Positions 3,954-6,511 of a stretch of DNA of 6,511 bases are shown here, in pieces. Made by a program: the position numbers and the translations under genes. This stretch comes from a bacterium (GTDB lineage Bacteria; Elusimicrobiota; Elusimicrobia; Elusimicrobiales; UBA9959). Each line of letters starts with the position of its first letter. The stretch's first letter is position 1. The stretch spans positions 1-6,511 of the forward strand of contig JAKAMO010000124.1 of NCBI GenBank assembly GCA_021812825.1. Direction: 5' to 3'. The notes below the pieces were generated by a model. It saw nothing but the letters and a program-made list of their open reading frames with translations. It was not told the origin of the DNA and did not search any database.

Positions 3954-4009
3954 TAGGAAATTTAATTTTTAAAAAGTATTTTTTTCCTCTGCTTCCCGGG
4001 AAGGTTTTA

Positions 4010-4015
4010 TATAAT
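4010..4015 (+). promoter_or_regulatory. -10 element TATAAT directly before the Rieske operon
   Basis: A perfect TATAAT lies six bases before the ATG at 4022, in an AT-rich stretch. No good -35 is found 16-18 bases upstream. Initiation about seven bases downstream would fall at the start codon, giving a leaderless or nearly leaderless mRNA. The only purine-rich sequence before ATG is TTGGAAA, a poor ribosome site, which fits this reading. Confidence 0.5.
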
Positions 4016-4021
4016 TGGAAA

Positions 4022-4330
4022 ATGAACGAAGCGGTGGACATCTGCGGGCTCGAGAGCCTGCCCGACGGCAAGCCGCGGGCCTTCTACCCGCTGGGGCTGC
4101 CGGTGCTGCTGCTGCGCCGCGGCGCCGAGGTGTTCGCGCTCGAGAACCGCTGCGCGCACATGGGCTGCCCGCTCTCCTCCGGCAGCCTCGACGGCTACAC
4201 GCTGCGCTGCCCGTGCCACGACTGGCGCTTCGACGTGCGGGACGGGAAATTCCTGGACGCGCCGGAGATCTCGCTGCGCACCTACCCCGCCGCGGTCAAA
4301 GGCGGCCGCGTCCAACTGAGGTTGCAATGA
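4022..4330 (+). CDS. Rieske [2Fe-2S] protein 1, disulfide-type boxes
   Basis: The 102-residue soluble protein covers a whole Rieske domain. Box I is CAHMGC (C44, H46) and box II is CPCH (C63, H66), separated by 16 residues; these give the 2-Cys, 2-His cluster ligands. C49 and C65 occupy the positions of the disulfide that supports the cluster in cytochrome bc-type Rieske proteins. The following DWRFDVRDGKFLDAPEISLRTY resembles NirD-like and soluble Rieske ferredoxins. There is no signal peptide or membrane span, so it is cytoplasmic. It would carry single electrons to or from a partner. ATG at 4022 is chosen because DICGLESLPDGKPRAF matches the usual N-terminal strand. In-frame starts at 3926 and 3935 would translate the AT-rich promoter. 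The stop overlaps the next start (ATGA). Confidence 0.93.
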   Translation: MNEAVDICGLESLPDGKPRAFYPLGLPVLLLRRGAEVFALENRCAHMGCPLSSGSLDGYTLRCPCHDWRFDVRDGKFLDAPEISLRTYPAAVKGGRVQLRLQ

Positions 4331-4578
4331 AAAAAGTCACGATCTACGCGCTCAGCACCTGCCTGTGGTGCAGGAAGACTAAGAAGTTCTTCGAGGACAA
4401 GAACGTGCCGTTCGAAGCCGTCGACTACGACAAGCAGGACGAGAAGAGGCAGGCCGAGATGAAGAAGGAGATGAAGGAAGCCGGCTGCGCGGCCTCCTTC
4501 CCTTTCGTCCGCATCGGCGGGTCCTGCGTCCAGGGCTACGACCCGGACGAGTTCGAGAAGCTGCTAGGAGGGAAATGA
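4327..4578 (+). CDS. Glutaredoxin-family thiol-disulfide oxidoreductase
   Basis: The protein has 83 residues, the size of a classic single-domain glutaredoxin. The fold is read as strand KKVTIYAL, the active site C12-L-W-C15 at the start of helix 1, VPFEAVDYD as strand 2, a lysine/glutamate-rich helix (about 36-52), then SFPFVRIGG (57-65) with Pro59 in the cis-Pro position, and GYDPDEFEKLL as the last helix. It has two extra Cys, C54 just before the cis-Pro strand and C67 after it. It should exchange dithiol and disulfide with protein or low-molecular thiols. It starts inside the Rieske stop codon and ends inside the start of the FTR-type subunit, so coupling to both is tight. A dedicated reductase partner, not glutathione, is the likely electron source, but that is inference. 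Confidence 0.92.
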   Translation: MKKVTIYALSTCLWCRKTKKFFEDKNVPFEAVDYDKQDEKRQAEMKKEMKEAGCAASFPFVRIGGSCVQGYDPDEFEKLLGGK

Positions 4579-4919
4579 GCCTCCAGGCGCGCAAAGCGGC
4601 GCTCCGCTTCCTCTTCGCTCCCGTCGTGGACAGGCTCGGCTACAAGTTCACGCCCAACGAGGAGGACGCCGACTTCCTGCTCGAGCAGGAAGCGGCCATC
4701 GAGGCCGAGACCGGGATCCCCTACTGCCCGTGCCAGGCCCGTTCGGGGGACCGCGCCGAGGACATGCGCATGGTCTGCCCCTGCATACCTTTCCACCGGG
4801 CCCATTACGACGCGATGCGCCGCTGCTGGTGCGGCCTGTTCGTGCACAAGGACGTGACCGACCCGGACGGCCTGAAGCAGATCCCCGAAGCCAGATGGAA
4901 GGAGCGGGCCGGGCTCTAG
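4575..4919 (+). CDS. Ferredoxin:thioredoxin reductase catalytic (beta) subunit-like Fe-S protein
   Basis: This 114-residue protein carries the six-cysteine pattern of the FTR catalytic chain: C51-P-C53, C68-P-C70 and C84-W-C86, the last running into GLF as in the family (usual form CPC...CPC...CHCGLF). These Cys hold a [4Fe-4S] cluster next to a redox-active disulfide, which lets single electrons reduce a disulfide in a thioredoxin-like partner. The N-terminal helical part (KAALRFLF...LGYKFTPNEED) also fits. The family's classical partner is thioredoxin, with electrons from plant-type ferredoxin and a variable alpha subunit. None of these is encoded in the window. Instead it overlaps a glutaredoxin gene by ATGA, with AGGAGGGAA as ribosome site, and is flanked by Rieske proteins. 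Confidence 0.93.
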   Translation: MSLQARKAALRFLFAPVVDRLGYKFTPNEEDADFLLEQEAAIEAETGIPYCPCQARSGDRAEDMRMVCPCIPFHRAHYDAMRRCWCGLFVHKDVTDPDGLKQIPEARWKERAGL

Positions 4920-4928
4920 CCCCGAACC

Positions 4929-5285
4929 ATGTACCTGAAGGCCCTCGAAGAAACGGAGCTCGCGCCAGGCGGCATGAAGGCCGTCTCCCTGCGCGGCACG
5001 GAGGCGGTGATCTGCGAGTACGCGGGCCGCTACTACGCCGTCTCCCGGGCCTGCGGCCACGCGGCCGCCCGCCTGGAGCGCGGCGCGCTCACCGGCTGGA
5101 TACTTACCTGCCCGCTGCACTACGCGCAGTTCGACGTGCGCACCGGCGAGGCACTCAGCGGACCCGCGCCGAAAGCGCCGGAGACCGCGCACCGCGACCC
5201 GCGCGACCCCTCGCTCGCCACCCGCGGGCTGAAGACCTGGCCGGCGAAAGCCGAAGACGGCTGGATCTGGCTCGACGTCCCCTGA
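4929..5285 (+). CDS. Rieske [2Fe-2S] protein 2, ferredoxin type
   Basis: The 118-residue soluble protein has a Rieske cluster site C42-G-H44 ... C61-P-L-H64, with 16 residues between the halves, followed by YAQFDVRTGEALSGPAPKAP, typical of the ferredoxins of ring-hydroxylating oxygenases and related soluble Rieske proteins. Unlike protein 1 it lacks the two disulfide cysteines (A47 and L63 stand there). It also carries an unusual stretch of about 15 polar residues (TAHRDPRDPSLATRG, 86-100) before the last strands KTWPAKAEDGWIWLDV. It starts nine bases after the FTR-type gene with only a poor ribosome site, consistent with translation coupled to that gene. No oxygenase or reductase subunit is adjacent, so a role in aromatic degradation is not supported; it more likely serves the redox operon. 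Confidence 0.92.
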   Translation: MYLKALEETELAPGGMKAVSLRGTEAVICEYAGRYYAVSRACGHAAARLERGALTGWILTCPLHYAQFDVRTGEALSGPAPKAPETAHRDPRDPSLATRGLKTWPAKAEDGWIWLDVP

Positions 5286-5351: not shown

Positions 5352-5897
5352 ATGAGATCACGCATTATCGCAGCTATAGCCATCGGGACCTTCCTGGCCG
5401 GTGCCGCCGCGCCGGCCGCGGCTGAAAAGGGCAAAGGCCCCTGCGCAGAGGACGCCGCCAGGTTCTGCAAGGACGTAAAGCCCGGAGAAGGCCGCGTCGC
5501 GGCCTGCCTGAAGGAACACGAGAAGGAGCTCACCGGGGCGTGCGCCGAGCGGCGCGCGCGGCTGGCGGAGAAACGCGCCGGGCGCGCGGGCGGGCGCCGG
5601 GGCGGCGGGGCCTGCCTGCGGGCTTACGGCGACGGCTTCGAGCGCGGTTTCAGGCGCGGGCTGAGCATGCGCCCGGGCAGGGACGGCCGGGAAGCCGCCG
5701 GCAAGAAGAAGAACGGCTTCAAGGTCTGCGCCGCCGACGCGAAGAAGCTCTGCGGGGACGTGAAGCCGGGCGAGGGCCGGGTCAGGGACTGCCTGATAAA
5801 GAACCTGGACAAGCTCTCCGGCGGCTGCAAGGCCCGGGCGGAGAAGGCCAGGGCCCGCCTGGAGAAGAAGGGGGACGACAGGGAAAAGAAGGCTTGA
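5352..5897 (+). CDS. Secreted protein with two Cys-rich (GLG1-type) repeats
   Basis: The protein has 181 residues. Residues 1-24 are a clear signal peptide (MRSRII, an Ala/Ile core, then PAAA before EKG), so the product goes to the periplasm or outside. Two copies of the cysteine-rich repeat of the Golgi GLG1/Cys_rich_FGFR family follow, around residues 30-67 and 125-162. Cys are at 31, 39, 52, 64 and at 126, 134, 147, 159, with identical spacing (7, 12 and 11 residues between them) and a shared DVKPGEGRV core. Four Cys per repeat suggest two disulfides each. The linker (68-124) is Arg/Gly-rich with one unpaired C88, and the tail is Lys/Arg/Glu-rich. An AAAGGAG site precedes ATG at 5352. Such proteins are widespread in environmental bacteria, with no settled function that I know of. 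Confidence 0.9.
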   Translation: MRSRIIAAIAIGTFLAGAAAPAAAEKGKGPCAEDAARFCKDVKPGEGRVAACLKEHEKELTGACAERRARLAEKRAGRAGGRRGGGACLRAYGDGFERGFRRGLSMRPGRDGREAAGKKKNGFKVCAADAKKLCGDVKPGEGRVRDCLIKNLDKLSGGCKARAEKARARLEKKGDDREKKA

Positions 5898-5964: not shown

Positions 5965-6511
5965 TCAGCGCCGCACGGCGCGCTCCGGCTGGAAGGCGGG
6001 CTTGGACATCTCTATCGGCTTGGAGACGAACAGCAGCGAACCGTAATCGATGCGCAGGCCGTACAGCACGCCGTTCACGGCCAGCAGCCAGCGCGGGTAG
6101 TCGGCTATCTGCGCGTCCGGCGTCAGCGAGAAATAATACAGCCCGTCGGAACCGACCCGCAGGGAGACGGTCCCCTCCCTCTCGGTCAGCGGCTCCAGGT
6201 TGCGGAAGACCGCGTACGTGACCGCGTCCCCGAAAGTGACCTTCAGCGAATCTTGGTAGAGCAGGTCGAACAGGGCGGTGACAGTGGTCTCCGCCTTCGC
6301 GCCGGCCCCCTCCACGGTAAGGGCGTCGCCGGTCTTAGTTATCTTCAGCTCCAGGTCCTTGTACCTGTAGACCGCTCCGGACTCGAGGGAGTCCTCCTTC
6401 CAGGCGCCGGCGCCAGGGCCGGAAACCGGCTTTATCATCACCCAGGAATCCCAGGCGGCGTCGAAGACGACTGAGACCAGGAACTTCACGCCCCCGATCT
6501 CGAGAGGCAGC
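5965..6511 (-). CDS. Unrecognised protein, C-terminal part (start beyond right edge)
   Basis: The frame is open from the right edge to TGA at 5965, giving 181 visible residues. The first possible start inside, GTG at 6489, is preceded by in-frame LPLEIGG that reads like coding sequence and has no ribosome site, so the true start lies outside the window. I do not recognise the family. The sequence looks like a mostly beta-strand soluble protein: alternating stretches such as KFLVSVVFDAAWDSWVMIK, YRYKDLELKITKTG, VSLRVGSDGLYYFSLT and WLLAVNGVLYGLRIDYGSL. It has no Cys, no membrane span and no obvious catalytic motif. The C-terminus is basic (PERAVRR). A periplasmic or surface protein with an N-terminal signal outside the window is possible, but that is a guess. 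A strong terminator follows. Confidence 0.8.
   Translation of the reverse strand, partial: LPLEIGGVKFLVSVVFDAAWDSWVMIKPVSGPGAGAWKEDSLESGAVYRYKDLELKITKTGDALTVEGAGAKAETTVTALFDLLYQDSLKVTFGDAVTYAVFRNLEPLTEREGTVSLRVGSDGLYYFSLTPDAQIADYPRWLLAVNGVLYGLRIDYGSLLFVSKPIEMSKPAFQPERAVRR

Follow-up and report, generated by a model that had tools for sequence, protein, structure and literature searches.

A cluster of small redox genes was examined in a stretch of 6,511 nucleotides (hereafter the window) of contig JAKAMO010000124.1, assembly GCA_021812825.1, from a bacterium of the Elusimicrobiota. It codes for a Rieske protein (R1), a glutaredoxin-like protein (GRX), a catalytic subunit of the ferredoxin-thioredoxin reductase type (FTR) and a second Rieske protein (R2). 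The arrangement of R1, GRX and FTR is not due to chance, and the block is widespread but patchy across bacteria and archaea. We consider it rather likely that the Rieske protein is the electron partner of the FTR-type enzyme, in whichever direction the electrons run. FTR-type enzymes are the textbook converters from ferredoxin to thioredoxin. A constant Rieske partner would widen the range of carriers they can use, and it raises the question of how a normally high-potential cluster works with a low-potential dithiol. The block is a variant of the kind formed by FTR and ferredoxin:disulfide reductase (FDR); new chemistry is not so far established. The features of the block are as follows.

4010..4015, forward strand: TATAAT box, ending 6 bases 5' of the R1 start codon
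4022..4330, forward strand: R1, Rieske protein of 102 amino acids (PF00355, 71.9 bits)
4166..4168, forward strand: codon of R1 C49, first of the bc1-type loop cysteine pair (from sequence)
4214..4216, forward strand: codon of R1 C65, second of this pair (from sequence)
4327..4578, forward strand: GRX, glutaredoxin-like protein of 83 amino acids, active site CLWC at residues 12-15 (PF00462, 46.6 bits)
4575..4919, forward strand: FTR, catalytic subunit of 114 amino acids (PF02943, 81.0 bits)
4725..4832, forward strand: codons of the FTR cysteine motifs CPC/CPC/CWC (from sequence)
4929..5285, forward strand: R2, second Rieske protein of 118 amino acids, ligand motifs CGHAAA and CPLHYA (PF00355, 56.5 bits)

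The layout of four open reading frames (ORFs) given in a preliminary description of this DNA was confirmed. All Pfam scores exceed the curated cut-offs, the two ATGA overlaps lie at 4327-4330 and 4575-4578, and the 9-base gap at 4920-4928. In the window proteins all six FTR cysteines, the CxxC of GRX and both sets of Rieske ligands are intact. The ligands of R1 are C44, H46, C63 and H66; its additional cysteines C49 and C65 are placed as in the Rieske protein of bc1.

To examine conservation, 84 loci of this FTR subfamily from bacteria and archaea were pooled, of which 74 remained after removal of 10 duplicates by protein identity. The count excludes three repeat fetches (L131-L133, of L039, L029 and L028), the fusion loci L134-L137 and the loci from R1 profile searches in the window's family and the Methanoperedens phylum. 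R1 was found 5' of FTR in 74/74 loci and GRX in 73/74, and R2 follows FTR in 42/74. The neighbourhood check suggested in the preliminary description thus found Rieske genes kept beside this FTR subfamily. Since R2 is optional, the core is R1-GRX-FTR; of the four-gene set described before, this core is conserved and the fourth gene is variable. The six FTR cysteines are kept in all 74 loci and the CxxC in all 73 loci having GRX. With start codons chosen by a script, no more than 20 bases separate R1 from GRX in 71 of 73 loci and GRX from FTR in 73 of 73. Two or three tandem R1-type Rieske genes stand before GRX in 20 of the 74 loci (L033, L036, L078, L080 and others). At the Methanoperedens locus L038 (244-5652), GRX lies about 4 kb upstream of R1-FTR-R2, as if by insertion.

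A contig scan for exact matches to six peptide patterns, all from a single query, gave 42 loci, which are hence close relatives. Rieske precedes FTR in 41 of them, with adjacent GRX in 40 of these and R2 in 37; at the remaining locus (L042) some 44 residues match and the other block genes are missing. The record titles include Elusimicrobia, Bathyarchaeota, Candidatus Methanoperedens and Methanolobus, and furthermore a Clostridiales, a Chloroflexi and an 'Actinomycetes' metagenome-assembled genome (MAG). Whole genomes were searched with the FTR alignment A1. The counts include the centre genomes, which are known positives: G202 for the phylum of the Clostridiales genome, G200 and G203 for that of a Methanoperedens genome, G206 and G199 as the sole matches of the Chloroflexi and Bathyarchaeota searches, and G198 for the 'Actinomycetes' search. 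Strong matches were obtained for 7/198 genomes of the Elusimicrobiota, 7/348 of the Clostridiales-genome phylum and 29/344 of the Methanoperedens-genome phylum, and all 36 loci from the latter two phyla are ordered R1, GRX, FTR. In the phylum of the 'Actinomycetes' MAG 2/149 genomes match, namely the centre genome and one fusion. An in-frame TAG seen in three FTR matches of the Clostridiales-genome phylum proved to be the ordinary C-terminal stop, which the profile match overruns.

Scores with A1 were bimodal in the Elusimicrobiota: 7 genomes reached 192-205 bits, and 30 lay in the range of 38-55 bits. Overall, this subfamily reached 159-212 bits, the FTR of the fusion described below 110 and weaker FTRs 38-55; the searches of the Clostridiales-genome and Methanoperedens-genome phyla were cut at E 1e-25, so that weaker FTRs do not appear there. 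As controls, 13 of the 30 weaker FTRs of the Elusimicrobiota (L050-L062) were fetched with about 1.5 kb on each side, or less for L056 and L062. GRX was detected nearby in 9/13 of these stretches and a Rieske match in 0/13. Of the nine control GRX genes, eight are next to the FTR frame or overlap with it; the ninth (L054) is separated from it by about 0.2 kb. The pairing of FTR with glutaredoxin, which the preliminary description set against the classical thioredoxin, is ordinary in this phylum, where it occurs without Rieske. Thus, the Rieske protein is the new element and special to this FTR subfamily.

The reverse search, with the R1 alignment A2, gave R1 at 131 bits or more in 34/59 genomes of the window's family. 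All of these belong to two genera (30/32 genomes of the window's own genus, 4/4 of the second, 0/23 of the remaining genomes). In 33 of the 34 genomes the only other Rieske match (E<=1e-8) is located within 1 kb, at the place of R2; it was read as R2 in seven of those genomes, and the window's own assembly, G000, is cut. R1 at 138 bits or more was found in 13/148 genomes of the Methanoperedens phylum, the same 13 that bear this FTR, and 21 other genomes there have only weaker Rieske matches of up to 77 bits. The alpha subunit (PF02941), reported earlier as lacking in the window, was found in none of 46 genomes, several of which are incomplete; the control, Synechococcus elongatus, was positive. 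These 46 comprise 43 genomes with this FTR or the fusion and three recognised by their R1, namely G000, G1584 and G1586.

The best single argument for FTR and Rieske acting on each other is a fusion of the two. In G1478 the 110-bit FTR belongs to a protein of 221 residues with FTR first and Rieske second, for which 657 homologues were found at E<=0.001. In all 120 matches listed, PF02943 and PF00355 occur together and the six FTR cysteines are complete; the named records among them are Coriobacteriia or other Actinobacteria. The fusion is present in 3/198 genomes of its phylum. GRX lies directly upstream at all three loci, with no separate R1 within the stretch. The predicted fold of the fusion looks reasonable, with Rieske ferredoxins as its best PDB matches. 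Such a protein is a test case in one chain. Furthermore, the three proteins R1, GRX and FTR have correlated tree distances (Spearman 0.74-0.82 for 73 loci, 0.66-0.78 over the 45 loci outside the Elusimicrobia), and each of their trees recovers the Elusimicrobia group and the Bacillota-type group as monophyletic. This agreement fits, without proving, movement of the block as a unit.

Directly after FTR a gene of the nitroreductase family was found in 20 of 47 wide loci (L033, L036, L041, L107-L120, L122, L123, L128) and R2 in 14, the two together in none; R2 was counted here only above 100 bits, by which the R2 of L038 was missed. The named loci with nitroreductase are Methanolobus, and the split between nitroreductase and R2 may follow lineage. 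Upstream of the 20 nitroreductase loci a MATE gene is present in 15 and a MarR gene in 14. Company of this kind would suit a stress or detoxification regulon, whose small redox proteins are merely co-transcribed and have no direct contact. We regard this as improbable, because it can hardly account for the FTR-Rieske fusions, for a gene order that stays the same across two domains and for R1 occurring in the same genomes as this FTR. In three Bacillota-type loci (L102, L103, L104) the same strand carries the gene of a 2[4Fe-4S] dicluster ferredoxin about 1 kb upstream of the FTR motif. A strict dicluster motif precedes the block in 3 of the 59 loci readable by the scan, which covered 72 loci, without L099, and missed the FTR motif in 13 of them. 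At L118 a different dicluster motif occurs 2.6 kb after the block. The preliminary description had regarded the set as a self-contained electron route between Rieske clusters and a glutaredoxin dithiol. With a nitroreductase in the downstream slot of many loci and a dicluster ferredoxin ahead of the block in three, its self-containment is doubtful.

For the Rieske protein as electron partner of FTR, we propose that the block is a Rieske-coupled relative of the ferredoxin:thioredoxin and ferredoxin:disulfide reductases. Judged by the six conserved cysteines, the [4Fe-4S] cluster of FTR and the neighbouring cysteine pair would interconvert one- and two-electron chemistry, which is established for the FTR family. 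GRX would stand in thioredoxin's place as two-electron dithiol/disulfide partner, and the one-electron part of ferredoxin would fall to R1 or to the fused Rieske domain. R2, or the nitroreductase-family flavoprotein in the Methanolobus-type loci, is probably a further electron port. Gene order, co-occurrence, the fusion and conserved residues are observed; that Rieske and FTR exchange electrons directly is inferred.

Classical FTR (EC 1.8.7.2) needs an alpha subunit, a plant-type ferredoxin as donor and thioredoxin as acceptor. The plant and cyanobacterial enzymes have the six-cysteine pattern in common with the window FTR, and their solved chains match it by sequence. In contrast, the alpha subunit was detected in 0/46 genomes here, and the neighbours are Rieske and glutaredoxin genes. 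An FDR of Methanosarcina with an NrdH/glutaredoxin partner has reportedly been described (Wei 2015 and Prakash 2018). Like the window block, it has an FTR-type catalytic subunit without alpha subunit and a glutaredoxin-like partner; its electron partner is ferredoxin, whereas the constant company of the window block is Rieske. The closest solved FTR chain is 4tpu_A, filed as 'Rubredoxin', which we take to be the FDR of M. acetivorans. The chain 7pwe_A of PDB entry 7pwe ('Ferredoxin-thioredoxin reductase subunit B', 196 amino acids) matches both GRX (chain residues 4-83) and FTR (124-173); thus, a glutaredoxin-FTR fusion has already been solved. Unlike in the block, no Rieske was matched in it. 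Among the open-licence papers listed by literature searches, none was found whose title or abstract opening brings FTR, glutaredoxin and Rieske together in one system.

R1 is a hybrid, with the fold of a dioxygenase ferredoxin and the bc1-type cysteine pair, minus the potential-raising Ser. Its fold resembles that of the dioxygenase-type Rieske ferredoxins (naphthalene, toluene, biphenyl, carbazole). It differs from them by the cysteine pair, which is absent from all four such ferredoxins aligned and present in 74/74 R1 proteins (taking the copy nearest FTR). R2 has the pair in none of 42. The pattern CxHxxC...CxCH is common to R1 and the Rieske proteins of bc1 and arsenite oxidase (AioB); in A. 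faecalis AioB and in bc1 its extra cysteines are joined as a disulfide (PMC3758308). In R1 the pair is bc1-type by position, and a disulfide is putative. Compared with bc1 Rieske, R1 is short and, as read from its sequence, has neither signal peptide nor membrane anchor. Ser is replaced by Trp in 74/74 R1 proteins (Ser in 0/74), and the Tyr donor is kept in only 5/74, with Phe in 69/74.

Potentials of about -150 mV are typical of dioxygenase ferredoxins and of about -200 to -250 mV of glutaredoxins. For bc1 Rieske about +300 mV and for AioB +130 to +225 mV are given in PMC3758308. In yeast Rieske, loss of the Ser lowers the potential by about 130 mV and loss of the Tyr by about 65 mV (PMC12954380); the same source gives +335 mV for the anammox Rieske Kustd1480, despite Phe in place of Tyr. 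By analogy, the potential of R1 is probably lower than that of bc1 Rieske and still higher than that of glutaredoxin. Flow from dithiol to Rieske would thus be favoured, with the reverse still allowed. If Rieske is the partner of FTR, we give an even chance to a net flow from GRX dithiols via FTR to Rieske, as an outlet for thiol oxidation, and a clearly smaller one to the reductive direction; regulation takes the rest. The cysteine pair of R1, on a ferredoxin-like fold beside a disulfide enzyme, suggests a switch. The most far-reaching version of these ideas is that bacteria and archaea have a kind of FTR, partnered by Rieske and GRX, that runs mainly backwards. It would pass electrons from cytosolic dithiols to Rieske carriers of higher potential as a flavin-independent, soluble thiol-oxidising route (disulfide-forming or redox-sensing) in anaerobes, with the R1 pair as switch. 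Taken as a whole, we consider this doubtful.

In the opposite sense, a low-potential donor (dicluster ferredoxin, flavoprotein) would reduce Rieske or FTR, from which electrons would reach GRX and target disulfides, e.g. of ribonucleotide reductase or peroxiredoxin. This is the direction of the known FTR and FDR systems, in which electrons from ferredoxin serve, by way of a [4Fe-4S] cluster in the active site, to reduce thioredoxin or other disulfides (PMC7278568). The ferredoxin genes upstream in L102, L103 and L104 and the lack of the potential-raising Ser, and mostly of the Tyr, in R1 are in line with it. However, the potential expected for the Rieske protein is still above that of glutaredoxins, the prediction of potentials from residues is loose, as the value for Kustd1480 indicates (PMC12954380), and the strict dicluster motif is confined to few loci. 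Such a reductive route is possible, short of an even chance.

The conserved pair of R1 also bears on the idea that R1 is a substrate and not a partner. FTR and GRX would then open and close a C49-C65 disulfide and so tune or gate the cluster. The pair is invariant in R1 despite the dioxygenase-ferredoxin-like fold, exactly four cysteines occur in 66/74 R1 proteins, and R1, which has no signal peptide by sequence reading, adjoins a dithiol system. Furthermore, removal of the disulfide lowers the potential of bc1 Rieske, as stated in PMC3758308. The same study reports for AioB a shift of -35 mV on adding the disulfide, but no change on removing it (PMC3758308). Moreover, the fused Rieske (120/120 matches listed) and R2 do without the pair, unlike R1, which makes the Rieske link independent of it, and at L096 an extra upstream R1-type copy lacks it as well. 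We consider this role of R1 unlikely, though somewhat less so than mere co-transcription.

Rieske clusters are the constant company of GRX and FTR, and some glutaredoxins carry clusters. Both points would agree with a function in iron-sulfur repair or assembly, with GRX and FTR keeping Rieske clusters or their cysteines usable. The dithiol CxxC in every GRX, which is not of the monothiol CGFS type, and the full catalytic cysteine set in every FTR speak against it, and we hold it to be very improbable.

Several points weigh against the Rieske protein as electron partner of FTR. The fusion and the neighbourhood are evidence of a link in function and not of electron transfer. The fused Rieske lacks the R1-type cysteine pair in each of the 120 matches listed, and it and R1 may not share the same job; the structural model of the fusion is only moderately confident (mean predicted local distance difference test, pLDDT, 81.9; predicted template modelling score, pTM, 0.75). 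R1 is not exclusive to the block, as six of the 13 R1-bearing genomes of the Methanoperedens phylum carry an additional R1-like gene (about 110-113 bits) at a distance from it (L199-L204), with no clear redox partner among its neighbours. The searches of the Chloroflexi-genome phylum (1/251) and the Bathyarchaeota-genome phylum (1/200) gave no strong FTR beyond the centre genome. Bathyarchaeota, Methanoperedens and Methanolobus are monophyletic in none of the three trees, and the distance correlations may stem from common descent alone. As to direction, Rieske potentials are usually well above dithiol potentials, which makes it thermodynamically awkward for Rieske to act as a reductant in the manner of ferredoxin; for the oxidative role, no final acceptor is known.

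Immediately 5' of R1, at 4001-4015, the window reads AAGGTTTTATATAAT. This 15-base match occurs once in the window and in none of 200 shuffles. A TATAAT-like box (at least 5/6 bases) is present at about the same place in 26/28 Elusimicrobia loci, the window excluded. Such boxes are fairly common there: as background, in 26 of these loci a similar box was counted at 43/473 first ATGs of ORFs of at least 130 amino acids, a set that includes spurious ORFs. A simple promoter scan of the window gave nothing at the TATAAT box before R1. The R1 block likely has its own promoter and a leaderless or nearly leaderless mRNA, and the boxes before R1 in the Elusimicrobia loci suggest leaderless messages in this group.

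Further observations concern the single proteins. The best NCBIfam match of the window GRX is the YruB type, under the cut-off of that family. For the window FTR the selenoprotein FtrB family NF041072 was rejected (42.7 bits versus a curated cut-off of 160). According to the Pfam scan, its 114 amino acids carry PF02943 only, without a C-terminal rubredoxin domain; at L035 an FTR paralogue, apparently rubredoxin-bearing, is sited apart from the block. Among the ten window ORFs scanned with Pfam there was no oxygenase or ferredoxin reductase, and no genome-wide search for them was made. PHROGs gave three matches for GRX and none for R1, FTR or R2, with no sign of a phage module. Assembly G000 stops within FTR, at window position 4618, and does not include the end of FTR and R2. 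The search of this genome with PF02943 was empty because the contig stops there. The 90%-identity cluster of the window FTR protein (P0001) comprises 8 contigs, the longest of 63,913 bases.

Upstream in the window, a frame of 336 amino acids on the reverse strand (1-1008) contains repeats of about 95 amino acids (DDPxVxGxWxSVDFV), runs off the window and has no Pfam match over the cut-off. At the other end, the reverse-strand frame 5965-6510 has no Pfam or NCBIfam match at E 0.1; opposite-strand relatives of it follow the block in many Elusimicrobia loci. Downstream of R2, at 5352-5894 on the forward strand, a protein with two cysteine-rich repeats (PF00839) is encoded, which is likewise found in many Elusimicrobia loci.

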